A DNA stretch of 40,703 bases from a bacterium (lineage in GTDB: Bacteria > Bacteroidota > Bacteroidia > Flavobacteriales_D > Sanyastnellaceae). The stretch covers positions 1-40,703 of the forward strand of contig JAPOHG010000016.1 of assembly GCA_029979565.1 (NCBI GenBank), read 5' to 3'. The position numbers were made by a program, and so were the translations under genes. This document shows positions 3,702-34,417 of this stretch, in pieces (positions within the stretch are counted from its first letter, which is position 1; the number at the start of each line of letters is the position of its first letter). The notes below the pieces were generated by a model. That model saw only the letters and a list, made by a program, of their open reading frames with translations. It was not told the origin of the DNA and did no database searches.

Positions 3702-3709
3702 TAAATTTG
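3702..3709 (+). promoter_or_regulatory. -7 promoter box of aroC, leaderless arrangement
   Basis: TAAATTTG is an exact match to the Bacteroidota -7 consensus TAnnTTTG and is followed by only AAAC before the aroC ATG. Since transcription starts a few bases after this box, the mRNA would begin at or next to the start codon. No clear -33 TTTG is seen at the expected distance. Confidence 0.65.
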
Positions 3710-3713
3710 AAAC

Positions 3714-4796
3714 ATGGCGGGCAACACATTCGGCACCTTGTTTCGACTAACCACATTCGGTGAATCCCACGGCCACGCCATTGGTGGTATTGTTGATGGA
3801 TGTCCCGCTGGTTTGGCGTTGGACTCCGAAGCGGTTCAATCGGAATTGGATCGAAGGCGCCCCGGCCAGTCCCACCTCACTACCCCTCGAAAAGAGCGCG
3901 ATACAGTCGAATGGCTGAGTGGCGTGTACGAGGGCGTAACCACCGGCGCACCGATCGGGTTCATGCTGCGCAATGAGGACACCAAGTCGGGAGATTACGA
4001 CCACCTCAAATCCGCTTTCCGCCCTTCTCATGCCGATTTCACATACACGGCCAAATATGGGCACCGTGATCACCGAGGCGGTGGGCGGTCTTCAGCGCGC
4101 GAAACTGCCTGCCGCGTGGCCGCTGGAGCCATTGCGCGGCAGTTGCTCGCAACGGTAGGCATGGAGGTGTCGGCCTACGTCGAACGCGTAGGGGAAACGG
4201 CCGTGCCCTTTGCGCCATCGTATTTCGACCGGGCTGCCATTGACGCCTCGCCCACTCGCTGTCCAGACCTCGCCACTGCTGCTTCGATGGCTGCGACCAT
4301 TGAAGCCGTCCGCAAGGAGGGCGATACGGTGGGCGGCGCCATCGCCCTGGTTGGACGTGGCATCCCAGCTGGCCTCGGCGAACCCGTTTTTGACAAATTT
4401 CAAGCCGTCCTCGCCCATGCCCTTTGGAGCTTGCCAGCGGTCAAGTCCATGGAAATCGGTTCTGGACTTCACGGCACCACCATGCGGGGTTCAACACACA
4501 ACGACGCCTTTCAGACCGATGAAAGCGGTCACCTCCACACGGCAACCAACCACAGCGGCGGCATTCAAGGCGGCATCACCAACGGCGAAGACCTCGTCGT
4601 TCGCGTTGGGTTCAAGCCGGTCTCCACGCTCATGAAGCCCCAAGCGACGGTCAATGCGGAAGGCGAAGCCATCACGTTGGAAGGCAAGGGACGCCACGAT
4701 CCGTGCGTACTGCCCCGTGCGGTGCCAATCGTGGAGGCCATGGCGCTGTTAGTATTGGCGGATCATTGGTTGATAAACCGCGCCGCTAAACTCTGA
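3714..4796 (+). CDS. aroC: Chorismate synthase
   Basis: AroC converts 5-enolpyruvylshikimate-3-phosphate to chorismate using reduced FMN, the last common step of aromatic amino acid synthesis. The 360-residue protein has the signature segments GESHGHAIGGIVDGCPAGL, KSGDYDHLKSAFRPSHADFT, the basic FMN/substrate region YGHRDHRGGGRSSARETA, and NHSGGIQGGITNGEDLVVRV. Length is usual for the family. The ATG at 3714 directly precedes the conserved N-terminus (GNTFGTLFRLTTFGESHG). It has its own promoter in the 45-base divergent gap with hutI. aroA, whose product is its substrate, is also in the window (38022-39314) but in a different operon. Confidence 0.98.
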   Translation: MAGNTFGTLFRLTTFGESHGHAIGGIVDGCPAGLALDSEAVQSELDRRRPGQSHLTTPRKERDTVEWLSGVYEGVTTGAPIGFMLRNEDTKSGDYDHLKSAFRPSHADFTYTAKYGHRDHRGGGRSSARETACRVAAGAIARQLLATVGMEVSAYVERVGETAVPFAPSYFDRAAIDASPTRCPDLATAASMAATIEAVRKEGDTVGGAIALVGRGIPAGLGEPVFDKFQAVLAHALWSLPAVKSMEIGSGLHGTTMRGSTHNDAFQTDESGHLHTATNHSGGIQGGITNGEDLVVRVGFKPVSTLMKPQATVNAEGEAITLEGKGRHDPCVLPRAVPIVEAMALLVLADHWLINRAAKL

Positions 4797-4811
4797 AAAC
4801 CCGAGGTTTTC
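4795..4811 (+). terminator. Short hairpin after aroC, possible weak terminator
   Basis: GAAAAC (4795-4800) pairs with GTTTTC (4806-4811) around CCGAG, starting inside the aroC stop codon. The U-rich segment is only four bases and lies within the stem, so termination would be weak. It overlaps the promoter region of the symporter gene. Confidence 0.35.
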
Positions 4812-4834
4812 CGGGCGTTCAACGTGTACATTAG
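4807..4834 (+). promoter_or_regulatory. Possible promoter of the SDF symporter gene
   Basis: TTTT (4807-4810) and TACATTAG (4827-4834) are 16 bases apart; the second differs from TAnnTTTG at one fixed position. AGGC separates it from the ATG at 4839, again a 4-base spacing that predicts a leaderless transcript. Confidence 0.45.
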
Positions 4835-4838
4835 AGGC

Positions 4839-6242
4839 ATGAAGAAACTGGCCCTCCATTGGCAAGTCATCATTGGTTTGTTGCTCGGTGTCGTGTACGC
4901 ATGGTTGAGTGTAACCATGGGTTGGAACGACTTCACGCTGGCTTACATCCAGCCTTTCGGTGACATTTTCATCAAGCTCCTCAAGCTCATTGCGGTACCC
5001 CTGGTGCTGTTCAGCATCATCAGCGGCGTCACCAGCCTGGGCAACATCCAGAAACTGGGCCGCATGGGGATCAAAACATTGCTCACCTACGTGGTCACCA
5101 CCATGGCTGCTGTAGTCATCGGCTTGGCCCTGGTCAATGTTTTCCAACCAGGAGCAGGGGCCGATGAAGACCTGCTCAAGGCCAACCGAATCCGGTACGA
5201 ACTCTGGCGCGACGCCAACGGCATTCAAGCCTTGGATGACATCCGAAGCATCGATGATCCGGCCAATGCTGCCTTGGTGCAGAGCATTGCAACCGAGGAG
5301 GCCGCTTCCAGCGATTGGGTCACCGACAAATTGAACAAAGCCACCAAAACCAAAAACTCCGGACCCCTGCAGCCTCTGGTGGATGTGGTTCCGAAGAACA
5401 TTTTCAGTTCATTGGTCGACATGTCCATGCTGCAGATCATCTTCTTTGCCATCTTCTTCGGCATAGTCGTGGTTGGCTTGCCAGAGGAGAAAAAAGCACC
5501 GTTGACGCGCGCCGTCGATTCCCTGAACGAGGTCTTTGTGCAAATGGTCTGGGTGGTGATGAAAGCCATGCCCTTTTTCGTTTTCGCATTGATGGCCGGG
5601 CAAATCGTCAAAGCAGCCGGCACCGAACCGGAAATGCTGAAGCAGTTGTTGAGCTTCCTCCTACGCTATGGCTTGGTGGTGGTGCTCGGACTGGCCATCA
5701 TGGTATTCTTATTCTACCCCGCGCTGGTGGCCTTGACCATCAAGAAATTGAGCTGGAAACAATTCCAGTCAGGCATGCGCGATGCGCAACTCACGGCATT
5801 TTCGACGTCGAGTTCGGTGGCCACACTCCCCGTCACCATGCAGTGCGTACACGATGGATTGGGCGTAAGTACGCGCACCTCCTCCTTCGTGTTACCCATC
5901 GGCGCCACCGTCAACATGGACGGAACGAGCATGTACCAGGCCATTGCCGTCGTAGCCTTGGCTCAATTTCACATGGTCGACCTCGCCTTCAGTCAACAGG
6001 CGGTTATCGTCCTCACCGCCACCCTAGCGTCCATTGGAGCTGCGGCGGTTCCATCTGCAGGCCTGGTGTTGATGATCATCGTACTCGAGAGTGTCGGACT
6101 GAATCCGGCTTGGATAGCCTTGATTTTCCCGATTGACCGAATCCTGGATATGTGCCGAACGGTGGTCAATGTGACCGGCGACGGTGCGGTCTCCTCTTTT
6201 ATTGCGGCCTCTGAAGGCGAATTGACCCCACCCGCTGCCTGA
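4839..6242 (+). CDS. Dicarboxylate/amino acid:cation symporter (SDF family)
   Basis: An inner-membrane sodium- or proton-coupled carrier of the GltP/DctA family, probably for glutamate, aspartate or C4-dicarboxylates. Diagnostic parts are the serine-rich hairpin STSSSVATLP, the sodium-binding GATVNMDGTSMYQ segment, and the last helix DRILDMCRTVVNVTGDGAV; about eight hydrophobic helices and two re-entrant loops fit the family. A hydrophilic insert of about 80 residues after the third helix (from FQPGAGADED to QPLVDVVPK) is larger than in enterobacterial GltP and is expected outside the membrane. I prefer the ATG at 4839 (467 residues) over the in-frame GTG at 4824, because the GTG lies upstream of the -7 box. 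The substrate cannot be fixed from sequence. The next gene starts 10 bases after its stop. Confidence 0.9.
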   Translation: MKKLALHWQVIIGLLLGVVYAWLSVTMGWNDFTLAYIQPFGDIFIKLLKLIAVPLVLFSIISGVTSLGNIQKLGRMGIKTLLTYVVTTMAAVVIGLALVNVFQPGAGADEDLLKANRIRYELWRDANGIQALDDIRSIDDPANAALVQSIATEEAASSDWVTDKLNKATKTKNSGPLQPLVDVVPKNIFSSLVDMSMLQIIFFAIFFGIVVVGLPEEKKAPLTRAVDSLNEVFVQMVWVVMKAMPFFVFALMAGQIVKAAGTEPEMLKQLLSFLLRYGLVVVLGLAIMVFLFYPALVALTIKKLSWKQFQSGMRDAQLTAFSTSSSVATLPVTMQCVHDGLGVSTRTSSFVLPIGATVNMDGTSMYQAIAVVALAQFHMVDLAFSQQAVIVLTATLASIGAAAVPSAGLVLMIIVLESVGLNPAWIALIFPIDRILDMCRTVVNVTGDGAVSSFIAASEGELTPPAA

Positions 6243-6252
6243 TGCGCTTGCC

Positions 6253-8307
6253 ATGAGCTGGATTGAACGCATCTGCCTGCTCGTCTTATGGGCAGTCGCC
6301 ATGGTCCCTGCTGCTTCCGCCCAATGGGACGATGAAGAAGAAATGTGCGCGTCGGTGCTCGAGGGCAAAACATTAAAACTATACGAAAAGGGCATCAACG
6401 GGTCGAAGTACGACCGCACCGAACGGGTCGCCTTCTTGGAAGAGGCGTTTGACCGGGACGATCAGTGCATGGCGTGTTTGTTCGAATGGGGCCGGTTGGA
6501 ATTCAATTCCATCAAGCGTTCTAGGGGCTCATTCTATCCGGCTCAACAACCGCTGAAGCAGCTCATCGACGCGTGCCCATTCTTTAGAGCTGAGGCTTGG
6601 TACATGCTCGGTGCCATGGCCTATGCCGACCGTGAATACGAGGCCGCTCAATCGTATTTTGAGGAATACTTGCGGTTCCCGCCCGCTTCCGAAGAAATAC
6701 TCGGAAAACGTCGGGACCGTTACGTGGAGGAGGTGAAAGAAGTCCTCCCAACCATCGCCTTTGAATTGGCCTTTCGGCAGAATGAGGGAAAATACCATCC
6801 GGCATCCATTCCACCCGTAAGCACACTGCGCGATGAGTTTCTGCCTGCCCTGTCGCCCGATGGAAGCCTTTTGTTTTTTACCCGACGGGAGCGATACAAA
6901 GCCAAAGGGGATGTGGTCTCCACCGAGAGTGAAGTGTTTTACGCAGCTGAACGCGAAGTCGGTGAAGAGTTCAACGCTGGCACGGCCCTCGAATCCCCTT
7001 TCAACTCAGGAGCACGCTACGGCGGTGCGAGCATATCCGTTGACAACCGTGAATTGTACATTGCCGCTTCGAACCCAACCGGCAAGAACCCGGACAACAT
7101 CGACTTGTACGTCACGGAATATGAAATCCTCGACAAAGACGACAACGGCGCATTCTTTTACATCTGGGGGCCACTGGCGCCCGTAGAAGCACTGAACACC
7201 TCCGATGGATGGGAGGCCCAGCCCGCTCTGAGCTCGGACGGCAATGAATTGTTCTTTGCTGCTGTCAATGCCGATTCACGCCAAGACCGAAACGGGAACC
7301 TGACCATGGACATTTGGTCCGCTGAGCGCAATGAGGTTGGTGAATGGCAGCCGGCGCAGATGCTGCCGTCTCCGATCAATTCCGACAGCAACGATAAGGC
7401 ACCTTTTTTGCACCCGGATGGCAAGACGTTGTACTTCGCGAGCGATCGCCAACCCGGCGGTGGCGGTTACGACATCTGGATGAGCCGCAGGGACAGTTCA
7501 GGAATGTGGGGCGAAGCGACAAATTTTGGGGCACCGCTTAACACTTCAGGCGACGAGCAAGGCCTTGTGGTCAGCACCAACGGCGCTGAAGCCTTCTTTT
7601 CTGGACGCCGGGACGGCACCCAAGGTATGGACATCATCCGATTTCCAGTACCAGACGAGATGAAACCAGAGTCGGTGTTCATTGTGCAAGGGGACTTGCT
7701 TGGCCCGGACAATGAAGTACCGGAAGGCGCGCGTTTGTATCTCCAATATGCACAGTCCAAAAACGTCCAAGAAATTGAAGTCAACCGCCAAGACGGCCAC
7801 TTTGCCTCGGTTGTTCGAGCAGCTGCAGGTGAAGATGTCCTGCTCGTTGCGGAAGCCGACGGCATTGCTTTCGAAGCCCAAGTCGTCTTTGATGCGGACT
7901 CTGAGGCAGCGCCCCCTGACCGGATGGACGCCCCCTTGGTGCTGGAAGAAGCAGCGAACGGCGAGCCATTCGAAATCGGCGACATTCAATTCGCCACCAA
8001 TTCGGCGGAGATTAACCGCACCAGCTTGTTGATGTTGGACCTCTTCGCCGCCTACCTGTTGCGCAATGACGCCATCGGTGTGCACATCAAAGGACACACA
8101 GACGACCGAGGACAGCCGGCGGACAATCAAGTGCTTTCGGAAGATCGGGCAGCGCGCGTGGCCTTTGCTTTGAAGGAATTTGGCGTACCGTCGAATCGCA
8201 TCACGCATGAAGGCTTTGGCCAATCGCGTCCCGTCGCTTCCAATGCGACAGCAGAAGGCCGATCTCAAAACCGCCGTACTGAATTTGAAATTCGCCTCGC
8301 CAACTGA
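6253..8307 (+). CDS. PD40/OmpA envelope protein with N-terminal TPR-like region (PorE-like layout)
   Basis: The 684-residue exported protein begins with a signal peptide (cleavage near ASA-QW, residue 23). Residues about 55-160 are helical and TPR-like. Residues about 190-470 hold PD40/WD40-like blades with repeated SPDG/SSDG/HPDGKTLYFASDR motifs, followed by a carboxypeptidase-regulatory-like segment. Residues about 570-684 form an OmpA-type peptidoglycan-binding domain (IQFATNSAEIN, HIKGHTDDRG, SEDRAARVAFALKEFG, QNRRTEFEI). This order resembles PorE of the type IX secretion system and related Bacteroidota cell-wall anchors. There is no lipobox cysteine, unlike many PorE proteins. It starts 10 bases after the symporter stop, so co-transcription is likely. 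A role in T9SS is an inference from architecture only. Confidence 0.82.
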   Translation: MSWIERICLLVLWAVAMVPAASAQWDDEEEMCASVLEGKTLKLYEKGINGSKYDRTERVAFLEEAFDRDDQCMACLFEWGRLEFNSIKRSRGSFYPAQQPLKQLIDACPFFRAEAWYMLGAMAYADREYEAAQSYFEEYLRFPPASEEILGKRRDRYVEEVKEVLPTIAFELAFRQNEGKYHPASIPPVSTLRDEFLPALSPDGSLLFFTRRERYKAKGDVVSTESEVFYAAEREVGEEFNAGTALESPFNSGARYGGASISVDNRELYIAASNPTGKNPDNIDLYVTEYEILDKDDNGAFFYIWGPLAPVEALNTSDGWEAQPALSSDGNELFFAAVNADSRQDRNGNLTMDIWSAERNEVGEWQPAQMLPSPINSDSNDKAPFLHPDGKTLYFASDRQPGGGGYDIWMSRRDSSGMWGEATNFGAPLNTSGDEQGLVVSTNGAEAFFSGRRDGTQGMDIIRFPVPDEMKPESVFIVQGDLLGPDNEVPEGARLYLQYAQSKNVQEIEVNRQDGHFASVVRAAAGEDVLLVAEADGIAFEAQVVFDADSEAAPPDRMDAPLVLEEAANGEPFEIGDIQFATNSAEINRTSLLMLDLFAAYLLRNDAIGVHIKGHTDDRGQPADNQVLSEDRAARVAFALKEFGVPSNRITHEGFGQSRPVASNATAEGRSQNRRTEFEIRLAN

Positions 8308-8381
8308 TTTTTCTTTTGCAGATTTCATCGCGTTTCGCCTCGTGAATCTCATGCATGGGCGGTGTGATAATTTGTGATTTC

Positions 8382-8411
8382 CAACGCGTCAATGGACACA
8401 TTAACGCGTTG
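8382..8411. repeat. Strong imperfect hairpin without a U-tract
   Basis: CAACGCGT (8382-8389) pairs with ACGCGTTG (8404-8411); inside, AATG (8391-8394) pairs with CATT (8399-8402) around the loop GACA, with a single C-A mismatch between the two helices. It lies in the 176-base gap between the PD40-OmpA gene and the TPR gene, upstream of the TPR promoter. No run of T follows on either strand, so it is not a standard intrinsic terminator. It could be a processing signal, a Rho-associated stop or a protein-binding inverted repeat. Confidence 0.6.
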
Positions 8412-8433
8412 AGAACTTCATGACCCCTCCCCG

Positions 8434-8461
8434 TTGCACGCTGCGTCCCGCGGTACCTTCG
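8434..8461 (+). promoter_or_regulatory. Promoter of the large TPR gene (TTG-N17-TACCTTCG)
   Basis: TTG at 8434-8436 and TACCTTCG at 8454-8461 are 17 bases apart. The box leaves 22 bases before the ATG at 8484, so this gene should have a short ordinary leader. The same octamer TACCTTCG occurs before the rfaE1-like gene. Confidence 0.65.
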
Positions 8462-8483
8462 GTAGGATAGACACCTGAAGTTT

Positions 8484-11400
8484 ATGAAGCGATTTTCCAA
8501 GGCCCTTCTTCTCTCTGCAACGATGTCCTTTGGCGGTATGGCACCCCTTGCTGCCCAGGTAGCAACCGATGATTGGGACCGTGCAACACGTTACTGGGGC
8601 CACCAGAAATACAACGCCGCTCAACATCATTACGATGCATGGCTGACAGAAAACCCCAACGCTGCCGCATCCCAAGTTGCTCTGGCCCAGTACCGAAGTA
8701 CGTCTTGCGCCATCCAATTGCAGCATCAAGATGCCGCCGAACGTGTCAAGGCTTTCGAGTCGGCTTTTCCAGAACATCCGCTCGTTCGTCAGGCGCGTTG
8801 GGATTTTGCCAACTACCTGTATCGAAAACGGGATTGGAAGGATGCTGCCATGGCATTTGACAGCCTCAACACGCTGCGCATGAAGCCAGCCCAAAAGCTC
8901 GAGATGCAATTCAAACGCGGTCACGCCTTGTTCGAAATGGAAGATTTTGATGAGGCTAGGCTTGACCTGTACGCGGTAATGGAGGCCGGGGAAGCTGCTG
9001 GTGCGTTCGAAAAACCAGCCCGGTATTACTTCAGCCACATCTCCTATTTGAAAGGCCAGCCCCAAGTAGCCTTGGAAGGATTCGAATCCCTGAAAGACGA
9101 CCCCAAACTCAAGCGGGTGGTCCCGATCTACGTTGCGCAATTGCTGCACGAAACCGAGCAATACGACCGCTTGATTGCATACGCCCCGGTGGTATTTGCA
9201 GAAGGCGTTGACCTGAGTAACGCCCAGCGCGCTGATATCTCCCGTTTGGTGGGCGATGCCTTGTACCGCCGGCAAAGCTTCAACGAAGCCCTACCCTACC
9301 TGGAAGAAGCCTACCACGCAACACGTGGCATGGGACGAACACGGGATTTTGCCTACCAGATGGGCTACACCTATTTCAAAGCTCAAGAGCACCTGAAAGC
9401 GTTGACTTGTTTTGCACTCGTCGTCCGAGACGCAGATGAAATGGCACAACTGGCGCACTACCACACGGCAGCATGTTACCTAGCCCTGGACGAAAAGGAG
9501 AAAGCCAAACTGGCTTTCAAGAAGGCCTCAGCGCTGGACCACGATGCCGGCATTCAAGAAGACGCCTTGTTCAGCTACGCAAAACTCGCCTACGAACTGA
9601 CCTTCAATCCATTTGATGATGCTGTCGTGGCCATTGAGCGGTATTTGGAACAGTACCCCAACTCACGCCGCAAGGATGAGGCTTACGGCTTCTTGCTCGA
9701 GGTCTACATGTCGTCCAAGGATTACAACCGGGCGCTCGAGGCATTGGATCAAATCGAAACGAAGACGCCGGATGTGAAGAAGGCGTACCAGCTGGTCGCT
9801 TACAACCGCGGCGTCGAACTCTTTCGCGCAGCATCGTATGCCGAGTGTCAAGATTACTTCGATGCGGCACGGACCTATGCCATTGACGCCACCCTCGCTG
9901 CCGAATCGCATTTTTGGCAGGGAGAAGCCCATTACCTCCAACGGGATTACACCGCAGCAACTGGCGCCTATGCGGCATTTGAATCGGCGCCCGGAGCTTT
10001 CAAAAGCAAGCATTACGCCAATGGCATGTATGCCCGAGGTTACGCCCTTTTCCAGCGCGGATTGTACCTGGACGCTCTGAGTGCATTTCGAAGCTACCTG
10101 AAGACCACAGAGGATTCAGAATTGCCGAAACGAAATGACGCGAAGCTCCGCGTGGCTGATTGTTACTACGCCAACAAGGAATTTGAACCGGCCGCTCGTT
10201 ACTATGGCGAGGTCATCGCTGAGAGCAAAAAAGACGAGGCCTATGCACGTTTCCAACGGGCCGAATGCTTTGGCACCTTGAACAACCCTGCGGCCCAAAT
10301 TGAAGAATTGCTTGACCTGATCGCAACCGGAACAACATCGACCTACCTCCCTGAGGCCCTTTATGCCCTGGGTCGTGCTGAAATTGAAACAAACGACATC
10401 GGCTCGGCAAAAGTCCACCTGATGGAACTTCGCGCCAGCTATCCGGAATCCCTCAAGAGCAAAAATGCATTGGTTGACTTGTGCCTCATCGCGATGAAGC
10501 AAAATCAGCCAGAAGAGGTGTTGGCCCTTTGGGACGAAATCCGAACGCGCTATGGAAATGATGCCATTGCCAGTGATGCCTACAACGTTGTGGAGCCGGT
10601 CTTGATCGACCAAGGGCTCCTCAATGACTTGCCTCCAGGTGTTGGACTTGATACAGATGAGATTGAAGCGCGCCTGTTCAATGCTGCGCGCGATGCAGCG
10701 TTGGAGCGGGATTGCGAAAAAGCCATGCGACGGTTGACCGAATACATCGCTGACTACACCAATGGCATGTTCACTACGGAAGCCCACTTTTTTCTAGCTA
10801 ACTGTGCATATGACACCGGCGACCTCGACTTGGCACGCGCTTCTTTTGAAACGGTTTTACAAGCACCCGTTAACGACTACACCGAGCCCTCTGCCCTCGG
10901 GGCTGCGACCATTGCGTGGAATGCACAAGACCTCGTCGGCGCAAAACAACATTACGCCACCTTGGAGGCCACAAGTGTGTTGCAAGAGAATGCGTTGGAA
11001 GCCCGAATTGGACTGATGCGATGCCACTACCTGTTGGAAGAAACCGAGGAAGCCGTGGCGTATGCCAATTTGGTCATCGATGACAGCAAAACACCCGATG
11101 ATATTGCCGCTACTGCACGTTTCTGGCGGGGCAGAATCAAGTTTGAGGCCGGAGCTTATACCGAAGCGTCATCCGATTTGAAAACGGTGGCAGCCCTTGG
11201 CGGAACACGAGGAGCAGAAAGTCAATTCATGCTGTGCCAAATCGCCTTTGCCAGCAAGGATTACACAGCCACCGAACAAGCCTTGTTTGAATTCATCCAG
11301 GCCTATGCCAACTACGATACGTGGAAACACGCAGCTTTCTTAATGCTGGTCGATACGTACATCGCCACGGGTGACTGGTTCCAAGCAAGAGCCACGGCAG

Positions 11401-13330: not shown

Positions 13331-15466
<2,136 letters not shown>

Positions 15467-15479
15467 TGTCGCTTATTGC

Positions 15480-16277: not shown

Positions 16278-16280
16278 TGT

Positions 16281-22113: not shown

Positions 22114-22126
22114 TCCTTTCACACTC

Positions 22127-22134
22127 CGAATATA
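22127..22134 (-). promoter_or_regulatory. -7 box of the hutH-exporter operon
   Basis: TATATTCG on the minus strand ends 13 bases before the hutH ATG and fits TAnnTTTG with C for the last T. TTC lies 21 bases upstream as a possible weak -33. It is the only promoter-like sequence I see for the whole five-gene operon. Confidence 0.55.
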
Positions 22135-22161
22135 GTGCCTCTTCCTCCGTTGACTGAACCT

Positions 22162-22169
22162 TATATTCG
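22162..22169 (+). promoter_or_regulatory. -7 box of the M16-like gene
   Basis: TATATTCG on the plus strand ends exactly 13 bases before the ATG at 22183, mirroring the hutH box on the other strand. TTC at 22142-22144 is 17 bases upstream and could serve as the -33 element. Confidence 0.55.
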
Positions 22170-22182
22170 GGGGAAAATTACG

Positions 22183-24902: not shown

Positions 24903-24913
24903 TTTGACACCCT

Positions 24914-25657: not shown

Positions 25658-26787
25658 CCAGCTGATTGAGCTTGATTTAACGCTTGCACAATGTTCGCCT
25701 CTTCCGCCTCCCAGTGCAGAGCGTGTGCAGCCTTGGAACACACCGACTGCCATTGGGTCCTCGGCTGTGCCAGCACCACCTCCACGGCCGCTGCGATTCC
25801 CGCGGGTGTTGAATCCTGGACCACATGCCCGATCCCCCACCATTCAATGATGCGGGTGACCTCTGCTATTGGGCTCGCCACCACTGGAATACCGGCGTGG
25901 ATGTAATCAAACAACTTATTGGGTAAACTCATCACGTAATTGCCGTGCACCCCTTGGTCCAGGCTCAAGCCCACATCCGCCGAAGCCGTGAGACCACATA
26001 ACGCGTCGAATGGCATTTTGGGCAACACAATCAATCGGCCCTCAAGAGCATCTGCCTGGGTCTGGGCCCATTCCCATTCCTCTCCTGCCCCAACAACCAC
26101 GAGGTACCACGAAGCCTGCTCGCGCAGGGCGTTGACCGCCTGAACGACACCGCGATCCTTATCCAGATACGCTCCTTGTAAGATCAGAAAGGGAGCATGT
26201 TCCGGAATGCCCAGGCGCTGCCTCCAACGCTCGGACTTTTCCACCTGTTGCGTTCGCTTCCGTGGCATGTTTCGCACCACCAGAGGCCGTCCTCCCCGAG
26301 CATTGGGGTACCTTTCAAGATAAGCATCAGCAATGCCGTCGTTCACCGTGATGACCGCAGCAAGGCGAGGAAAAATAGCCCGTTCCAATCGCAACCATAC
26401 CCCCCGCTGGAAGGGACGGCCTGTCAAGCCTGCCGCTTCTGTAAAATACTCGTGGCTATCATAAACCAATGGCAAGCCTTGCGCCCGTGAAACCATGAAT
26501 GCAGGCAATAGTGTATCCAAATCATTGGCCCAAACGGCGTCCACCCGCGCGCGCTTGAGGGCGCGCAACAATCCAAGTTGGAGCGATGCATAGAACCAAG
26601 CTCCCCGTTGAAAAGGCAGGCGCATGCGGTGAGCTTCGAAGGGAACTTCGAGCGCTTTTGACTCCGGCATTTCCCGTCCAATCAAAATCGGTTTCCATCC
26701 CTCCGCTGCTAACGTAGCACAGGTTTTGAGCACACGCTGGTCGTGGTTCAAATCATTCGAAACTAAGACAGCTATTCGCTTTGCCAT
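25654..26787 (-). CDS. Glycosyltransferase family 4-like
   Basis: A 377-residue GT-B enzyme. The N-terminal half starts IAVLVSNDLNHDQRVLKTC, a typical opening of this group, and has VYDSHEYF. The C-terminal half carries the donor-binding loop MSLPNKLFDYIHAGIPVVAS, where family members have the E-x7-E region. Length is normal. It probably transfers a nucleotide-activated sugar during surface polysaccharide or lipopolysaccharide synthesis. It is the last gene of the recR-led minus-strand run, eight bases after the exonuclease gene. Its TAA stop shares bases with the TAG stop of the GT2 gene on the other strand (TTAG, 25654-25657). Confidence 0.87.
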   Translation of the reverse strand: MAKRIAVLVSNDLNHDQRVLKTCATLAAEGWKPILIGREMPESKALEVPFEAHRMRLPFQRGAWFYASLQLGLLRALKRARVDAVWANDLDTLLPAFMVSRAQGLPLVYDSHEYFTEAAGLTGRPFQRGVWLRLERAIFPRLAAVITVNDGIADAYLERYPNARGGRPLVVRNMPRKRTQQVEKSERWRQRLGIPEHAPFLILQGAYLDKDRGVVQAVNALREQASWYLVVVGAGEEWEWAQTQADALEGRLIVLPKMPFDALCGLTASADVGLSLDQGVHGNYVMSLPNKLFDYIHAGIPVVASPIAEVTRIIEWWGIGHVVQDSTPAGIAAAVEVVLAQPRTQWQSVCSKAAHALHWEAEEANIVQALNQAQSAG

Positions 26788-26795
26788 GCGATGGA

Positions 26796-27632
26796 TCAGG
26801 CGTTCATCGAATCGTGAACGCGCTTGAGCACTTTTTTGGTGTATTCAGGAAAATCTGCTCCCATCATCCAACCGAAATATCCGGGATTCTCGGTCAATAC
26901 ATCGACCACCCGTTTGCCTTTGTGTTGGCCGAAGTTGAAGCAAATGGACTCGTCGGCACCGATGACGAAACGGCCAGCCGGATCGGCGAAGGGTTGCCGC
27001 TGACAAAACTTCCCGAGTTCGTCCATATCAAGCGGCACTGGCCCCACGGTCTCGTCGTCCGAGACGTCAACAACCGTGTCCTGGTATCGTTCCAATTGCG
27101 CCATCAGCACTTCCAACGTCGCCTCGGTATCAGGCAGTGCCTCATGGGCACCTTCAATGGTCTTGCCGCAGTAGAATTTATACGCCGCTCGCAACGTGCG
27201 CTGTTCCATTTTGTGAAAAATGTTCTGCACATCGATCAGATTGCGGCCCTCCAGCTCAAAATCGATTCCCGATCGCAGAAATTCTTCCGCCAAAAAAGGC
27301 ACGTCGAACCGGTTGGAATTGTACCCCCCCAAGTCGCACCCTTCCAGAAATTCCGACATGCTCTTGGCATACTGCCGGAACGTCGGCTTGTCCTTCACAT
27401 CGTCGTCGTAGATGCCGTGGATGAGGCTGGTTTCGAGCGGGATGGGCATGCCGGGATTGATCAACAAGCGGTGTTCTGCTCCTCGCTTCTCGGGCTTTTT
27501 CTCGACCGATCCATCCGGATTCACTTTGATCATTGCGATTTCAACGATGCGGTCTTTTGACAAATCCGTGCCCGTGGTTTCCAAATCGAAAATCACCAAG
27601 GGACGTTGTAACTTCAGTACGGATACATCCAT
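26796..27632 (-). CDS. 3'-5' exonuclease, DEDDh (DnaQ/ExoX-like)
   Basis: A 278-residue nuclease. ExoI motif FDLETTGTDLSKDRIVEIA supplies the Asp-x-Glu pair; ExoII is GGYNSNRFDVPFLAEEF; ExoIII is GAHEALPDTEATLEVL, with the histidine that defines the DEDDh subgroup. After about residue 220 comes a small domain FNFGQHKGKRVVDVLTENPG...FPEYTKKVL of the kind found at the C-terminus of exodeoxyribonuclease X-like proteins (DUF3820). It could act in proofreading, repair or RNA trimming; the sequence does not decide. The ATG at 27632 is three bases after the E2 gene. It shares an operon with recR, a second DNA-repair gene. Confidence 0.9.
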   Translation of the reverse strand: MDVSVLKLQRPLVIFDLETTGTDLSKDRIVEIAMIKVNPDGSVEKKPEKRGAEHRLLINPGMPIPLETSLIHGIYDDDVKDKPTFRQYAKSMSEFLEGCDLGGYNSNRFDVPFLAEEFLRSGIDFELEGRNLIDVQNIFHKMEQRTLRAAYKFYCGKTIEGAHEALPDTEATLEVLMAQLERYQDTVVDVSDDETVGPVPLDMDELGKFCQRQPFADPAGRFVIGADESICFNFGQHKGKRVVDVLTENPGYFGWMMGADFPEYTKKVLKRVHDSMNA

Positions 27633-27635
27633 GGC

Positions 27636-29021
27636 TTAAACGACCGGACGGTTCAAATCAAACTCCTCCAAGTACGTCGCAACCCGCTTGACGAAGCTGC
27701 CTCCCAACATGCCGTCCACAACGCGATGGTCATAGCTATGGCTCAGGAACATCATGTGGCGGATGCCAATCATGTCCCCTTCCGGCGTTTCAATCACTGC
27801 AGGCTTTTTGCGAATGGCACCGAGGGCGAGGATGCCCACTTGCGGCTGGTTGATGATGGGGGTGCCCATCACATTGCCGAAGGTACCAACATTGGACATG
27901 GTGTACGTACCTCCCGCGGTATCATCCGGATTTAGCTTGCCTGTTCGTGCCCGCTCTGCGAGATCATTGACCCGCGTAGCCAATCCTACCAAACTCAATT
28001 GGTCCGCGTTGTGGATGACGGGCACAATCAAATTTCCCGATGGCAAGGCCGTGGCCATGCCCAAGTTGATTTGCTTCTTAATGACGATGCGATCGCCGTC
28101 AACGCTCGCATTCACGCCGGGGAAGTCTCGAATGGCTTTGACAATGGCCTCAGCGATCAAGGGTGTGAAGGTCAATTTCGTCCCGTGTGCCTGCTCAAAA
28201 GCAGCTTTGTTGCGCTTACGCCACTCCACAATTTTGGTCATGTCGGCCTCGACGAAGCTCGTCACGTGTGGACTGGTCTGCTTCGAGCGTACCATGTGAT
28301 CCGCGATGAGCTTGCGCATACGATCCATCTCGATAATCTCGTCTTGACCGGAAAACGAAACCGCCGGGGCCGTGCTCGCGGAAGGCGTTGGACGCCCTGA
28401 ATCGGGAGAGGCTTGGGCAGCAGGAACGGAAATGGTCGCAGATGCTGAGCCGCGTGATGCGATGTAAGCGAGAATGTCTTTTTTGGTGACGCGCCCCTCA
28501 GAGCCGGATCCTGAAATACCATCCAATTCAGCCGGGGTCACCCCTTCCGACTGTGCGATGCTACGGACCAGCGGTGAGTAAAACCGTCCGTTCGCCCCGA
28601 TCCGTGCAGGCATGTGTTCCAGTGGGGCTGAAACGACAAGTGGAGCTTGCAACGCCTCAACTACTTCCGGCGCGGGCACGGGCGCTTGTGCGGGTGCTGG
28701 CGTGGGTTCTGGAGCCGGGGTCGGAGCTGGGGTCGGTTCGGGTGCTTCTGCTAAGGACGAAGGAGCGGCTTCGGCATCCCCATCAATTTCAAATTTGGCA
28801 ATCGCTTGACCTACAGCAACCACATCACCTTCTTGCACCAACCATTCAACCAACGTTCCGTCCTCTGGTGCTGGCACTTCACTGTCCACCTTGTCGGTTG
28901 CAATTTCAACCAAGGGCTCGTCTGCTTCGGTTTGCTCCCCAGCATTGACGACAAACTTCGTGATCGTGGCTTCGGCCACGCTCTCCCCCATTTTGGGTAA
29001 CAAAATTTCAATTACTGCCAT
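27636..29021 (-). CDS. 2-oxoacid dehydrogenase E2 component (dihydrolipoamide acyltransferase)
   Basis: The 461-residue core subunit of a 2-oxoacid dehydrogenase complex. Domains in order: a lipoyl domain (residues 2-80; ATDKVDSEV with Lys44 as lipoylation site), an Ala-Pro-Glu-rich flexible linker (about 90-125), a peripheral subunit-binding domain (about 135-185; FYSPLVRSIAQSEGVTPAEL, GSGSEGRVTKKDILAYI) and the catalytic acyltransferase domain (about 225-461), with the active-site SHSYDHRVVDGMLGG. The unusual feature is the single lipoyl domain with an extended AP linker, common for branched-chain-type E2 in this phylum. E1 and E3 genes are not nearby. Its ATG overlaps the upstream GT2 gene by 14 bases. 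Whether it serves branched-chain ketoacids, pyruvate or 2-oxoglutarate is not settled. Confidence 0.92.
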   Translation of the reverse strand: MAVIEILLPKMGESVAEATITKFVVNAGEQTEADEPLVEIATDKVDSEVPAPEDGTLVEWLVQEGDVVAVGQAIAKFEIDGDAEAAPSSLAEAPEPTPAPTPAPEPTPAPAQAPVPAPEVVEALQAPLVVSAPLEHMPARIGANGRFYSPLVRSIAQSEGVTPAELDGISGSGSEGRVTKKDILAYIASRGSASATISVPAAQASPDSGRPTPSASTAPAVSFSGQDEIIEMDRMRKLIADHMVRSKQTSPHVTSFVEADMTKIVEWRKRNKAAFEQAHGTKLTFTPLIAEAIVKAIRDFPGVNASVDGDRIVIKKQINLGMATALPSGNLIVPVIHNADQLSLVGLATRVNDLAERARTGKLNPDDTAGGTYTMSNVGTFGNVMGTPIINQPQVGILALGAIRKKPAVIETPEGDMIGIRHMMFLSHSYDHRVVDGMLGGSFVKRVATYLEEFDLNRPVV

Positions 29022-30972
29022 GGCGATGTATTGCGCGGTACGAAATTAAGGCTTCCCAGATGACTTGCACATCGATTGTCCAACGATAATCACGAACGTA
29101 TGTGAGCAGCGTTCGTTGCCGCGCCCTTTCGTCCATGCCTTCAGCACGCTGAAAAACGAATTGGTGAGAAGGACCGGCAGGGCCGTCATGCATTTCGTTA
29201 TAGCCAACCCACGTGCGGGTTCCCGTCAAGACCTCCACGGCTGCACCGAGCCAATGGGCTTGTTTTCGAAGAATGAAGACGGGAAACGCCAACAAGACCA
29301 AAAGGGCTACGGTTGCATCCACAGTCCGTTTTGCCCGTCGCGCTCGCGGCTTGAATATGGCACCGCTCCATTCGGTAATGGCACCACGCTCGGGGCCGCC
29401 TGCTCCTACGATTTGACCGTCATCCGTCCAGGCAATCCTAAAACGAAGGTTTTTATTGGAAACCAGGCTCATGGCCCGGATCATTTGACCAGCGGAGACC
29501 TCTCGGCCGCTCATGATGATTTCGTTGAATTGATGCACGCGAATGGCATCGCTCAGGCTGTCCAGACCGCCGAGCCAACGCACCCCGTCATCTTCCACAT
29601 CAACGGAATCGGAATGAATGGAAAGGGCATAAACCGAACCAAAGGCCACCGGCTCCAGCACATCGTAGGTGCGAACGAGGTCTTGCATCGGCGCCAAGTC
29701 ACGGGAGCCAGAAATATACAGGCGCTTTGGTGCTGCATCGTCCGATGCCCCAAACAACCGCACGAAAAAGGTGCGAACAAGGGCAATGGTCACGGGTACC
29801 AAGGCTGTCCCGAAAAAAAAGATCGCCCGGCTAAAACGCAGCGATTCAGGAAGTAAACCGTACGTGGCAAGGAGCAATACCGTTCCCATTACCGTTCCCT
29901 TCGCAACCGCATTCCAACGCCAGGGCTTATCATATCCGCCTTGGAGTTTGACCGCCACAAGCCAGACGAGGGAATACACTCCGGTAGCCGGAAGTGCCAT
30001 GCCCCAATCGTATGGAATGTTCTGCAACTCACCGTATTGCTGTAAAAAAACCACCAGCCCCCCCCAAGAGAGCAGCCACTCAACGGTAGGAAGGGCGATG
30101 GCCTTCGATACCCTCGAGACAATGGCCAATGCCGCCCGAAGGTAAATGGCCAGCTGAATCACCCGGTGCATCGCACGGCCGCTGCGCCCTCGAAAGTGCG
30201 TACGTGCAAAAATTTGCATAGCGCGGTAGAACACAAGCACGTAATTCAGCGAGCCCTTCTTCGTGCTTTCGCCTTTGTAATGAACAATCGAAGTGTCGGC
30301 GAAATAGTGGTTTTCATAGCCACCTTTGATCAACCTCCAACTCAAATCGATGTCTTCGCCGTACATGAAGTATTGCTCATCGAGCAGACCAACTTCGTCC
30401 AATGCTGACTTGCGCATCCACATGAAGGCTCCACTCAATATTTCAATGGGCTGGGATTCGTCCTTGGATAAATTTCCAAGGTAATACCGGTTCAGTCGAG
30501 CGGACCTCGGGGCCAAACGGTAGAGTCCTGTGATTTTCCAAAAAGCGGCGCTCGGGGTTGGAATGCCGCGCTTGGACTCCGGAAGGTAACGACCGCTGCC
30601 ATCGACCATGGGCACGCCTAGCCCACCCAATTGGGGACGGGCATCTGCATATTTCAAACACTTCAATAAGGTGTCCTCCTGAATGATGGTGTCGGGATTC
30701 AAAAGAAGCACGTAGCGCCCATTGCTCTTGCGAATCGCCAGGTTGTTGCCCTTTGAAAACCCCAAGTTTTCCTTCGAATCGATTAAATGCACCTCTGGAA
30801 ACATGCGCCGGACCATCGCACAGGATCCGTCCACAGAATTGTTATCCACCACGAACACTTCGGCTTCGTACCCCGCTTGCTTCAACACAGCGCTTCCTGC
30901 CCGAAGGGACAGGAGGCACTGAGAGAGGAAGTGTTCAACGTTGTAATTGACAATAATGACCGAAACGTCCAC
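29008..30972 (-). CDS. Glycosyltransferase family 2 fused to a degenerate sugar-transferase-like membrane region
   Basis: A 654-residue protein. Residues 1 to about 270 form a rhamnosyltransferase-like GT2 domain (VSVIIVNYNVEHFLSQCL, VVDNNSVDGS, ENLGFSKGNNLAI, the DxD-type LLLNPDT, and GLLDEQYFMYGEDIDLSWR). Four hydrophobic helices follow at about 295-420, then a Rossmann-like segment (KRLYISGSRDLAPM to about 530). A last membrane segment KRTVDATVALLVLLAFPVFI and the piece GTRTWVGY resemble the start and one loop of WcaJ/WbaP polyprenyl-phosphate sugar transferases, but the catalytic body is missing. It likely works at the inner membrane in polysaccharide assembly. It lies nine bases after recR and overlaps the E2 gene by 14 bases. 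Confidence 0.83.
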   Translation of the reverse strand: MDVSVIIVNYNVEHFLSQCLLSLRAGSAVLKQAGYEAEVFVVDNNSVDGSCAMVRRMFPEVHLIDSKENLGFSKGNNLAIRKSNGRYVLLLNPDTIIQEDTLLKCLKYADARPQLGGLGVPMVDGSGRYLPESKRGIPTPSAAFWKITGLYRLAPRSARLNRYYLGNLSKDESQPIEILSGAFMWMRKSALDEVGLLDEQYFMYGEDIDLSWRLIKGGYENHYFADTSIVHYKGESTKKGSLNYVLVFYRAMQIFARTHFRGRSGRAMHRVIQLAIYLRAALAIVSRVSKAIALPTVEWLLSWGGLVVFLQQYGELQNIPYDWGMALPATGVYSLVWLVAVKLQGGYDKPWRWNAVAKGTVMGTVLLLATYGLLPESLRFSRAIFFFGTALVPVTIALVRTFFVRLFGASDDAAPKRLYISGSRDLAPMQDLVRTYDVLEPVAFGSVYALSIHSDSVDVEDDGVRWLGGLDSLSDAIRVHQFNEIIMSGREVSAGQMIRAMSLVSNKNLRFRIAWTDDGQIVGAGGPERGAITEWSGAIFKPRARRAKRTVDATVALLVLLAFPVFILRKQAHWLGAAVEVLTGTRTWVGYNEMHDGPAGPSHQFVFQRAEGMDERARQRTLLTYVRDYRWTIDVQVIWEALISYRAIHRHGSN

Positions 30973-30981
30973 GGCTTGAAG

Positions 30982-31605
30982 TTAGGAGGTATACGGTAAG
31001 CGTTGCTTCAGGCTCTGCACCAAGGTGGCTTCGTCGGCATGTTGCAAATCTTCACCCACGGCCAATCCTCGAGCAATGGCTGTAACGTCCACCGCTGAAT
31101 GGGCTAATTTTCGAAACAAGTAAAACGCTGTGGTCTCGCCTTCCATGGTCGCCGGCAGGGCAAAAATGACCTCGGTGCGCCGGTCGGCATCGGCGCCGTC
31201 ATGATGCTCGAGTCGCTGAACGAGCGTATCAATGTTGAGGTCGTTTGGGCCAATGCCGTCCATGGGGCTGATCACGCCTCCCAAAACGTGGTATTTACCG
31301 CGGTATTGCCCGGTGGATTCGAGCGCCAACAAGTCCCGAATGTCCTCGACGACACAAATCAACCCTTCGTTGCGCGTCGGATCGACGCAGATTGAGCAGA
31401 CCTCTGTTTCCGTCAAATTGTGGCACTGGCGGCACGCATGAATGCCTTTTTTCATGGCTTGGAACGCTTCGGCAAAGGCATCCACCTGCTCGTCCGACCG
31501 ATTCAATAAGTTCAATACGAGGCGCAGCGCGGTTTTGCGGCCCACACCCGGCAGCGATGCCATTTGGTCAACGGCTGCTTCAATCAACCGCGAAGGAAGT
31601 TCCAT
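30982..31605 (-). CDS. recR: Recombination protein RecR
   Basis: RecR acts with RecO and RecF to load RecA on gapped DNA. The 207-residue product shows the helix-hairpin-helix MASLPGVGRKTALRLVLNLL, a C4 zinc finger (CRQCHNLTETEVCSIC), and the TOPRIM domain (LICVVEDIRDLLALESTGQY, YHVLGGVISPMDGIGP). Length is typical. The ATG at 31605 is preceded by an exact -7 box only four bases upstream, so a leaderless transcript is likely. It heads a tight minus-strand run of five genes (recR, GT2 fusion, E2, exonuclease, GT4). Confidence 0.97.
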   Translation of the reverse strand: MELPSRLIEAAVDQMASLPGVGRKTALRLVLNLLNRSDEQVDAFAEAFQAMKKGIHACRQCHNLTETEVCSICVDPTRNEGLICVVEDIRDLLALESTGQYRGKYHVLGGVISPMDGIGPNDLNIDTLVQRLEHHDGADADRRTEVIFALPATMEGETTAFYLFRKLAHSAVDVTAIARGLAVGEDLQHADEATLVQSLKQRLPYTS

Positions 31606-31609
31606 AGTG

Positions 31610-31617
31610 CAAATTTA
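31610..31617 (-). promoter_or_regulatory. -7 promoter box of recR, leaderless arrangement
   Basis: TAAATTTG on the minus strand, an exact consensus match and identical to the aroC box, is followed by CACT and the recR ATG. No good -33 TTG is seen at 17-20 bases. Confidence 0.65.
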
Positions 31618-31629
31618 CAGGTGGTTGCC

Positions 31630-31637
31630 CATCTTTG
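31630..31637 (+). promoter_or_regulatory. Possible -7 box of the SSS symporter, 4 bases before the start
   Basis: CATCTTTG differs from TAnnTTTG only in the first base and is followed by AGGC and the ATG at 31642. It lies 12 bases from the divergent recR box, so both promoters would compete for polymerase. Confidence 0.45.
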
Positions 31638-31641
31638 AGGC

Positions 31642-33120
31642 ATGACTCCAACAACGGTTCTCCTCATTTTTTGTGGATATGTTGCGGTGTTGCTGCTTGT
31701 GGCTCGACTGACAGCCCGACATGAAGCACAGGAAAGCGATGCGCATTTTTTCGTGGCCAGCAAAAAGGCCCCATGGTATGCAGTTGCATTTGGCATGTTG
31801 GGGGCTTCGCTGAGCGGAGTAACCTTCATCAGCGTTCCTGGATGGGTGGACACCCAAGGCTTCACCTACATGCAAATGGTGTTGGGGTACTTGGTCGGTT
31901 ATGGATTCATCATGGCGGTGCTCATGCCCTTGTACTACCGCATGGGCCTGACGAGCATTTACGGCTACTTCGAAAGCCGTTTCGGACCGAAGGCCTACCG
32001 CACCGGTGCCGCATTTTTCATTCTGTCCCGGACCATCGGGGCTGCTTTTCGGCTTTTTCTTGTGGCGCTGGTGCTGAAGCTGTTCATCCTCGAACCGCTC
32101 GGGTGGAGTTCAACTTCTCAGGCGACGGTGGACTGGGGCTATGCCGTGGCAGTGCTGGTCATTTTGGGGGTGATTTGGGCGTACACCCGCCAAGGCGGGT
32201 TGGGAACCATCGTTTGGACCGACACCCTGCAAACGGCTGCCATGCTCCTGGCTGTGGTGTATTCCGCCTATGCCATCTCAACGGCATTGGATTGGTCATG
32301 GGGAGAAACGGTTCAGCACATCCAATCGAGCCCCATGGGCCAATGGTGGGTATGGGACGACTGGAAAGCCCCCAACCATTTCATCAAGCACTTCACGGCC
32401 GGTGCTTTTGTCGCGACGGCCATGACCGGCATGGACCAGGACATGATGCAAAAAAACCTCGCCTGCCGAAACCTCCAGGAAGCACGCTGGAATATGGGCA
32501 GTTTCTCCTTGGTACTGGTCGCGGTAAATGTGCTGTTTTTGGGTTTGGGCGTGCTCTTGTACACTTGGGCCGACAGCCAGTCACTGGCGATCGAACGAGC
32601 CGATAGTTTGTACCCAACCGTTGCGCTTGGTGGAAGTTTGGGATGGGGATTGGGATTGGTGTTTCTCATCGGCCTGTTGGCTTCTGCGTTTAGCAGCGCA
32701 GACAGCGCCATGACCGCATTGACCACGTCCATCTGCGTGGACCTGCTCGGCACGGAGCGGCAATCGCATGAACGCGCCAAAGCGGTCCGCAAAAAGGTCC
32801 ACTTGGGAGTCGCATTCGTATTGTTCGGCGTCATTCTGGCTTTCAGTGCTGTGCAGGACTCCAGCGTGGTATCGGCAATCTTCACAGCGGCCAATTACAC
32901 GTACGGCCCGATCCTCGGGCTGTTTGGTTTCGGGTTGATGACCAAAGGCAAGCCTGTCGACCGCTTGATTCCTTGGGTGGCCATTGCGAGTCCGATCCTG
33001 TGTTACTTGCTTGAGGCTAGCTTGAAATCGAAGTATGGCTTCAGCTTCGGATTTGCCTTGCTCCCCGTGAATGGGTTACTCACATTTTTGGGGCTTTCGC
33101 TGTTGACGAAAAAGCGGTGA
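31642..33120 (+). CDS. Sodium:solute symporter (SSS family)
   Basis: A 492-residue inner-membrane protein with about 13 hydrophobic helices. The first helix is followed by FFVASKKAPWYAVAFGML and GASLSGVTFISVPGWV, the usual sodium-site helix of the family, and helix 8 has SAFSSADSAMTALTTSICVDL, which carries the second part of the conserved sodium site. It imports a small solute with sodium; the substrate (sugar, amino acid, sialic acid or other) cannot be told. Its ATG is 36 bases from the divergent recR start. aspC starts 77 bases after its stop and has its own promoter-like box. Confidence 0.92.
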   Translation: MTPTTVLLIFCGYVAVLLLVARLTARHEAQESDAHFFVASKKAPWYAVAFGMLGASLSGVTFISVPGWVDTQGFTYMQMVLGYLVGYGFIMAVLMPLYYRMGLTSIYGYFESRFGPKAYRTGAAFFILSRTIGAAFRLFLVALVLKLFILEPLGWSSTSQATVDWGYAVAVLVILGVIWAYTRQGGLGTIVWTDTLQTAAMLLAVVYSAYAISTALDWSWGETVQHIQSSPMGQWWVWDDWKAPNHFIKHFTAGAFVATAMTGMDQDMMQKNLACRNLQEARWNMGSFSLVLVAVNVLFLGLGVLLYTWADSQSLAIERADSLYPTVALGGSLGWGLGLVFLIGLLASAFSSADSAMTALTTSICVDLLGTERQSHERAKAVRKKVHLGVAFVLFGVILAFSAVQDSSVVSAIFTAANYTYGPILGLFGFGLMTKGKPVDRLIPWVAIASPILCYLLEASLKSKYGFSFGFALLPVNGLLTFLGLSLLTKKR

Positions 33121-33159
33121 TTTGTACCATGGGAGCAACAGCCCTGTGAACAAGGACTG

Positions 33160-33167
33160 TATTTTTG
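33160..33167 (+). promoter_or_regulatory. -7 promoter box of aspC
   Basis: TATTTTTG is an exact match to TAnnTTTG, 30 bases before the ATG at 33198, giving a short ordinary leader. The nearest TTTG upstream (33121-33124) is 35 bases away, too far for a standard -33 element. Confidence 0.55.
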
Positions 33168-33197
33168 TGCTTTCAACTTTACACTTCAGGCAACCCC

Positions 33198-34394
33198 ATG
33201 GAACAGCGACCTTCTCAACTGCTCAGCCGCCTTTCCGAATCAGCGACCATTGCCATGGCGCGGAAGGCCACCGAATTGAAGCAATCCGGTGTCGACGTGA
33301 TCTCACTCTCCCTTGGTGAACCGGATTTTGACACCCCCGAAGTGCTCAAGCAAGCGGGGATTGAGGCGATTGAGAACAACATCACACATTACACGCCGGT
33401 ACCGGGGCTTCAAGATGTGCGCGAAGCCATTTGCGCCAAATTCAAACGGGACAACGGGCTCGACTTCTCACCGGCTCAAATCGTCGTGTCAAACGGTGCG
33501 AAGCAGAGCATCACCAACGTGGTGCTGACGCTCGTCGATCCGGGTGAGGAAGTCATTTTGCCGGCTCCGTATTGGGTGAGCTATGCGGACATGGTGGCCT
33601 TTGCCGGCGGCACCTCCAAAGTACTCCCCACGTCCATCGAGAACGATTTCAAAATTCAGCCGGATGAATTGGAATCAGCCATCAACGACAAAACCCGGTT
33701 GCTGATTTATTCATCGCCATGCAATCCTTCGGGATCGGTGTATACGCGAGCTGAAATTGAAGCGTTGGCGGAGGTGCTGAAACGCCATCCTCACGTCTTC
33801 GTAATCAGCGATGAGATTTATGAGCTGATCAATTTTACAGAAGGGCACTGCTCCATGGGTACCCTTGAAGGACTGAAAGACCGTGTCATCACCGTGAACG
33901 GCGTTTCGAAAGGCTTCGCCATGACCGGCTGGCGCCTCGGATACATCGGCGCACCGGAATGGATTGCCAAAGCTTGTTCTAAAATCCAAGGCCAGGTGAC
34001 GTCTGCTCCATGCAGCATTGCTCAGGTGGCTGCGGGTGCAGCCGTTTCGGAGGACCCCTCCATCGCCGACGCGATGAAGGCGGCGTTTCTGTCCCGTCGA
34101 GATTTAATGATTGAGGGATTGAGCGCCATTCCCGGCCTGAAGGTAAACCGGCCCATGGGAGCGTTTTACTTGTTCCCAGACGTGAGTGCTTTGTTCGGTA
34201 AGTCGAGTGGCGATCGCACCATCGAGACCGCCGAGGACTTCGCCATGTACCTCCTGGAAGAAGCCCACGTGGCGACGGTTGGCGGGGGTGCGTTTGGAAC
34301 CCCCGAATGCATCCGCCTCTCCTACGCGGCCTCTGAAGCGCAATTGAACGAGGCGCTTACACGGATTTCAACGGCCGTTGCAGCCCTTCAATAA
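33198..34394 (+). CDS. aspC: Pyridoxal phosphate-dependent aminotransferase (aspartate aminotransferase type)
   Basis: A 398-residue fold-type I aminotransferase of the AspAT Ib group, which interconverts aspartate and oxaloacetate with glutamate and 2-oxoglutarate and may also act on other amino acids. Visible motifs are SLSLGEPDFDTPE (substrate side), VSNGAKQSITNVVL, SSPCNPSGSVY (Asn contacting PLP), VISDEIYELI (Asp pairing with the pyridine nitrogen), and NGVSKGFAMTGWRLGY with the Schiff-base lysine. The ATG at 33198 gives the normal N-terminus; a start at 33165 would lie on the promoter box. It lies 23 bases upstream of the rfaE1-like gene. Confidence 0.92.
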   Translation: MEQRPSQLLSRLSESATIAMARKATELKQSGVDVISLSLGEPDFDTPEVLKQAGIEAIENNITHYTPVPGLQDVREAICAKFKRDNGLDFSPAQIVVSNGAKQSITNVVLTLVDPGEEVILPAPYWVSYADMVAFAGGTSKVLPTSIENDFKIQPDELESAINDKTRLLIYSSPCNPSGSVYTRAEIEALAEVLKRHPHVFVISDEIYELINFTEGHCSMGTLEGLKDRVITVNGVSKGFAMTGWRLGYIGAPEWIAKACSKIQGQVTSAPCSIAQVAAGAAVSEDPSIADAMKAAFLSRRDLMIEGLSAIPGLKVNRPMGAFYLFPDVSALFGKSSGDRTIETAEDFAMYLLEEAHVATVGGGAFGTPECIRLSYAASEAQLNEALTRISTAVAALQ

Positions 34395-34405
34395 GGCCCG
34401 TTCGC

Positions 34406-34413
34406 TACCTTCG
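34406..34413 (+). promoter_or_regulatory. -7 promoter box of the rfaE1-like gene, leaderless arrangement
   Basis: TACCTTCG, the same octamer as before the large TPR gene, is followed by TAGT and the ATG at 34418. TTC at 34387-34389 lies about 17 bases upstream. It would drive the rfaE1-trkH-ubiE-aroA run. Confidence 0.55.
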
Positions 34414-34417
34414 TAGT

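Follow-up and report, generated by a model that had tools for sequence, protein, structure and literature searches.

Bacteroidota mostly lack Shine-Dalgarno (SD) sequences. According to the published maps, leaderless mRNAs are too rare in the phylum to account for this lack (PMC6847099; PMC9723704), and other papers state generally that many leaderless mRNAs occur in Bacteroidetes or Flavobacteriia (PMC5397173; PMC10783764). Transcription in F. johnsoniae begins 4 or 5 nt past the -7 element at many promoters, and the leader is longer than 10 nt for 87% of 241 probable promoters (PMC6847099). F. psychrophilum has a TAnnTTTG box at -12 to -5, and leaderless messages have been measured at 5.5% of the mRNAs of 890 CDSs (PMC9723704); in B. 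thetaiotaomicron, about 3.7% of the 5' UTRs measured are shorter than 10 nt (PMC7366714). A broader bacterial class, the TA-led leaderless genes, is recognized by a box about 10-12 bp before the start codon that predicts a leaderless mRNA. The box of this class is the sigma-70-like TANNNT and the class takes in more than 20% of genes in Actinobacteria and Deinococcus-Thermus, while Bacteroidetes are said to have many "atypical" genes (PMC3160421, BMC Genomics 2011). Among the matches listed in the literature on leaderless transcripts in the phylum, no study on the present lineage was recognized, and no species of the phylum had a leaderless share measured at more than 5.5%.

The window, meaning the whole 40,703-base stretch that was analysed, is contig C7 of a 1,957,202-base assembly that is 79.6% complete. 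The 12 nearest public records (L031-L042) are metagenome-assembled.

Promoter boxes four bases before start codons

The distance d is the number of bases between box and start codon, and the strict box is TAHHTTYG. The first-pass annotation had listed five genes with the order box, four bases, ATG, and had named hutI as a possible sixth; read directly, all five lie where they had been placed, and the hutI arrangement was confirmed on the minus strand. On the plus strand, the aroC box TAAATTTG (3702-3709) is followed by AAAC (3710-3713) and the ATG at 3714 (gene 3714-4796), the SDF symporter box TACATTAG (4827-4834) by AGGC (4835-4838) and the ATG at 4839 (gene 4839-6242), the SSS symporter box CATCTTTG (31630-31637) by AGGC (31638-31641) and the ATG at 31642 (gene 31642-33120), and the box of the rfaE1-like PfkB kinase, TACCTTCG (34406-34413), by TAGT (34414-34417) and the ATG at 34418 (gene 34418-35440). 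On the minus strand, recR has the same box as aroC, TAAATTTG (31610-31617), with CACT (31606-31609) and the ATG at 31605 (gene 30982-31605), and hutI has TACCTTGC (3673-3680), GGCC (3669-3672) and the ATG at 3668 (gene 2412-3668). Pfam agrees with the gene names, giving chorismate synthase, SDF, RecR domains, SSF, PfkB and amidohydrolase. The strict box is present in three of the six (aroC, recR and rfaE1), the SDF and SSS boxes each have one mismatch, and the hutI box is of the TAnnTTGY type. The sigma-ABfr -7 element TAnnTTTG is exact in aroC and recR, and rfaE1 has C at position 7. Within 200 nt upstream of the six starts there is no second strict box, and Rfam and tRNA scans of the window returned no matches.

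Boxes 13-48 bases upstream had also been reported for ftcD, gyrB, aspC, hutH and a TPR gene. Of these, ftcD (d=20), hutH (d=13) and the aspC-like aminotransferase (d=30), named by Pfam, do have strict boxes at such distances. No strict box was listed for gyrB (13481), and none of the genes was identified as the TPR gene.

Four of the six genes form divergent pairs with very short intergenic regions, each holding two back-to-back predicted leaderless promoters. The hutI/aroC region (3669-3713) is 45 bp in the window and in 18 of 18 genus loci; the recR/SSS region (31606-31641) is 36 bp, a length found in 9 of 17 genus loci, the other 8 having 35 bp. In other families for which the same gaps were measured, they span 83 and 72 bp, and 115 and 59 bp. 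Divergent genes can thus pack two promoters into 35-45 bp. The recR and SSS boxes are 12 bp apart in the window, so two polymerases should exclude each other, and mutual exclusion of the paired promoters is possible at both 31606-31641 and 3669-3713.

Distances between box and start codon

The sample of the own genome consisted of the window and 20 stretches of 20 kb (440,703 bases, 22.5% of the genome), scanned on both strands for a strict box that precedes, at distance d, an ATG heading an open frame of at least 100 codons. There were 17 such events at d=4; every other distance from 0 to 40 had at most 4, and their mean was 1.70 (Poisson 4.7e-12). In five species of the genus, totaling 1,178,346 bases of which 737,643 came from four congeners, there were 40 events at d=4, whereas the other distances from 0 to 60 averaged 3.5 and reached 12 at most; the species contributed 17, 10, 6, 5, and 2, and the last (G016, 100,126 bases) has no peak. 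With called genes, the strict box is at d=4 in 27 of 830 cases, whereas 300 dinucleotide shuffles of their upstream regions yielded 0.27 such cases on average and never more than 3. The sharp peak above a shuffled background that had been proposed as the mark of such a class is present in the sampled own genome and four congeners taken together.

Reversed, reverse-complement and AT-swapped control motifs have no peak at 4, and boxes with an altered core, such as TTHHTTTG, TAHHATTG and TAHHCTTG, occur 0 or 1 times at d=4 in the own sample. Among the degenerate boxes with their top count at d=4 in the genus are TAHHTTAG (6), TAHHTTGC (7), and CAHHTTTG (8), the last of which barely exceeds its other distances. 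Gene starts were taken from a simple caller of our own, and 93% of the 27 strict d=4 genes start with ATG and the remainder with GTG. Base -1 is C in 74% of these 27 genes, giving a C/A start; since C at -1 is also common in leadered genes (54% of 54), it does not separate the two classes. A -33 element (TTG, TTTG, TTGC or TTG[CA]) is not enriched in the 27 leaderless or in 70 leadered promoters, and promoters of F. johnsoniae have little of a -33 element too (PMC6847099). In the 70 leadered promoters from the genus stretches, A occupies the 7th base past the -7 box in 49% and the 8th in 57%; counting the fifth base as +1, these would be transcript positions +3 and +4.

The strict box closest to the start, up to 120 nt away, was recorded for 821 genus genes, of which 158 were boxed, and for 695 genes of four outgroup families, of which 173 were boxed. 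The boxed genus genes fall as 1 at d=0-3, 26 at d=4, 19 at d=5-7, 8 at d=8-12, 69 at d=13-40, 22 at d=41-79 and 13 at d=80-119; the corresponding outgroup numbers are 0, 8, 19, 4, 94, 32, and 16. The genus distribution has a spike at 4, a shoulder at 5-7, a dip at 8-12 and then a broad leadered mode. The dip, which is deeper in the outgroups than in the genus, sets the leaderless group apart from the leadered group, and the coexistence of two initiation modes suggested by the first-pass annotation fits this bimodal shape. By species, d=4 was found in 12 of 64, 5 of 50, 4 of 22, 4 of 14, and 1 of 8 boxed genes, so that G000 alone gives 12 of the 26; the 1 of 8 belongs to the small sample of G016, which has 3 of 8 at d=5-7. 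Overall, strict d=4 boxes precede just 26 of the 821 genus genes. The outgroup share (8 of 173) resembles the 5.5% of F. psychrophilum, which suggests that the count is not far off; definitions differ between the studies compared. G019 was left out of the outgroup counts (40,958 bases in short contigs) and alone has no d=4 box. There was no d=4 spike in 68 public loci of other Bacteroidota (332,407 bases), a non-random set consisting entirely of aroC neighborhoods, the counts at d=4, 5, 6 and 23 being 3, 4, 4 and 15.

Conservation among orthologues

The genus yields 106 orthologue rows for the six window genes, of which 102 have d=4 and four, all recR, have d=5. The rows include the own sequence, were limited to ATG, GTG or TTG starts and used the best box match within d=0-15 with ties broken to d=4; truncated starts (e.g. 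G014 aroC and G006 SDF) and alignments not beginning near residue 1 were left out. By gene, d=4 holds in 18 of 18 rows for aroC, the SDF symporter, rfaE1 and hutI, in 17 of 17 for the SSS symporter, where the box is also identical, and in 13 of 17 for recR; the extra base in the remaining 4 of 17 implies a 1-nt leader. This spacing is kept among orthologues with protein identity as low as 57%. Columns -12, -11, -8, and -7 match the own sequence in every row of five genes and in 75-100% for recR, with its four shifted rows, while identity in spacer columns -4 to -2 is 12-76%, except for recR -4 at 100%, with a preference for C at -1. A loose d=4 box stands in one or both members of 12 unique orthologue pairs (14 rows, 2 duplicates); it is shared by both members in 8 of these pairs and not in the other 4. 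The spike and the conservation of box and spacing across the genus together support the proposal that the d=4 layout is a systematic class.

Of the recR rows from outside the genus, 4 of 9 have the box at exactly d=4 and 6 of 9 at d=4-6. For aroC, the distance is 4-6 in 7 of 8 such rows, including one whose start is GTG and whose box is weak. No d=4 box was found there for SDF, SSS, rfaE1 and hutI in 2, 4, 2, and 1 rows, respectively. The short distances of recR and aroC indicate that their predicted leaderless or near-leaderless starts are probably older than the genus.

In hutI, a second in-frame ATG at codon 3 (3662) was picked by our caller. The first ATG is present in 18 of 18 genus rows, the second is absent in 7 of 18, and bases -16 to -5 are identical across 18 of 18. 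In sequence, TACCTTGC fits the SM5 motif of F. psychrophilum (TAnnTTGY, -12 to -5), and with its four-base spacer it would stand at the same position; the selected SM5 promoters shown for that species do not include hutI, and no sigma factor is named for SM5 in the part of the paper covered (PMC9723704). Within the genus, TAHHTTGC has 7 at d=4 and 4 at the next highest distance, and TAHHTTGT has no peak. Given its match to SM5, hutI may represent a second promoter class positioned, like the first, at the leaderless distance.

Probable leaderless transcription and alternative explanations

The layout is very probably that of primary-sigma promoters which, with the box at d=4, would start transcription at the A of ATG and yield an mRNA without a leader. 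The sigma-ABfr-type -7 box, TAHHTT(T/C)G, has its last base five positions upstream of the A of the start codon; because published start sites lie 4-5 nt after the box, that A is the predicted +1 when the spacer has four bases. RNA polymerase would then initiate on the A of ATG, and the ribosome would engage the 5'-terminal AUG directly. Other genes, with boxes at least 13 bases upstream, would be transcribed with leaders, giving two initiation modes in one genome, and hutI would follow the leaderless layout using its TAnnTTGY box.

The box at -12 to -5 could instead be a translation-initiation element of leadered mRNAs made from promoters further upstream. Leadered genes are A-rich near -11 in the genus (56% A of 54), so the zone matters for translation, and an A-rich -11 occurs in the outgroups too. 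The motif, however, matches the published sigma-A box and also occurs at leadered distances in the same genomes, the six window genes have no further strict box within 200 nt, and divergent gaps of 35-45 bp leave scant space for additional promoters; an element of this kind is quite improbable. Starts could also have been misassigned, with the true starts downstream and the ATG after the box there by chance. Gene starts were predicted from sequence, and the second hutI ATG at codon 3 is present in 11 of 18 rows, but untruncated genus orthologues of the five genes first listed align from residue 1 at the d=4 ATGs, and the excess does not depend on gene calling: without it, ATG outnumbers every other codon at d=4 in the genus, with 24 after TAHHTTTG and 16 after TAHHTTCG, the next codons having 3 each. 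Such an error of annotation is hardly credible.

A different objection accepts the class but takes it as ordinary, with about 5% of genes leaderless in Bacteroidota generally and the genus no different. Published values (5.5% in F. psychrophilum, about 3.7% of B. thetaiotaomicron 5' UTRs below 10 nt, and 13% of F. johnsoniae leaders no longer than 10 nt) are compatible with a general background, 27 of the 173 boxed outgroup genes have d=4-7, and the short distances of recR and aroC extend beyond the genus. Against this, exact d=4 is found in 26 of 158 genus genes versus 8 of 173 in the four outgroup families (Fisher odds ratio 4.3 for d=4 compared with d=8-79, p=3.6e-4), and d=4 is preferred to d=5-7 in the genus (26:19) relative to the outgroups (8:19, p=0.03), although both p values are optimistic because congeners share genes and are not independent samples. 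Predicted leaders of 0-10 nt (d=4-14) occur in 56 of the 158 and those of 0-3 nt in 45. That the genus is merely typical is thus unlikely, yet this view deserves serious consideration.

Shine-Dalgarno sequence, 16S rRNA and rpsU

A strong SD for autoregulation of bS21 is described in many Flavobacteriales. Judged by eye over 45 nt, all 16 congeneric rpsU leaders (L326, L329-L338, L340, L341, L343, L344 and L346) lack a GGAG-type SD close to the start. A sigma-A-like box is present roughly 17 bases before the ATG in these 16 leaders. Another locus, L319 (G004:C30), has a second S21-like gene that encodes a different protein type and is possibly contamination; it was excluded from the rpsU count. 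In other families, 8 of 11 loci have an rpsU leader without an SD, with the weak AGGA of G022 scored as lacking, and G021, G024 and G028 have one. A genus-specific link between leaderless usage and the rpsU SD was considered and rejected, as the SD is also absent in those 8 of 11 loci.

The anti-SD core at the 3' end of 16S rRNA is UCUCC (GGATTATCTCCTTT) in congener G015 (L314, minus strand), the one genome of 22 congeners in which the 16S end was found, so that this core rests on one genome. The G015 16S locus has 94.4% identity to G001 over 1,175 bases versus 83.3-87.8% to four other families. Three other families (L311-L313) have a CCUCC core, and a published variant from Chryseobacteria and related genera is UCUCA (PMC9976891; PMC8710568).

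A larger interpretation would be that the lineage has shifted to leaderless initiation as a major mode, with exact zero-nucleotide leaders several times as common as in related families and used by two promoter classes, divergent gaps of 35-45 bp, an altered anti-SD core (in one congener) and an rpsU leader without an SD (shared with several families), and that leaderless usage and decay of the SD and anti-SD are perhaps linked. We offer this as a speculation and think it rather doubtful. A genus with about one in six recognizable promoters at the exact leaderless distance is in any case a test case for ribosomes starting on 5'-terminal AUGs, and a box at d=4 is a start-site signal usable by gene finders.

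Comparison with described systems

Earlier papers already describe leaderless genes, the sigma-A box and the occurrence of leaderless mRNAs in Bacteroidota; what is unusual here is the exact and frequent usage. F. johnsoniae shares with the genus the same box and the absence of a clear -33 element (PMC6847099), but predicted leaders of 0-10 nt, found in 56 of 158 boxed genes in the genus, contrast with the 87% above 10 nt in that species. The TA-led class uses TANNNT, whereas the genus uses the Bacteroidota box TAHHTTYG; in both, it is the distance from box to start that predicts leaderlessness. The shares for F. psychrophilum and B. thetaiotaomicron were measured, while the 26 of 158 at a predicted 0 nt in the genus are known from sequence alone. 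On that footing, leaderless messages look several times commoner and more exactly placed in this marine Flavobacteriales lineage than is known elsewhere in the phylum.
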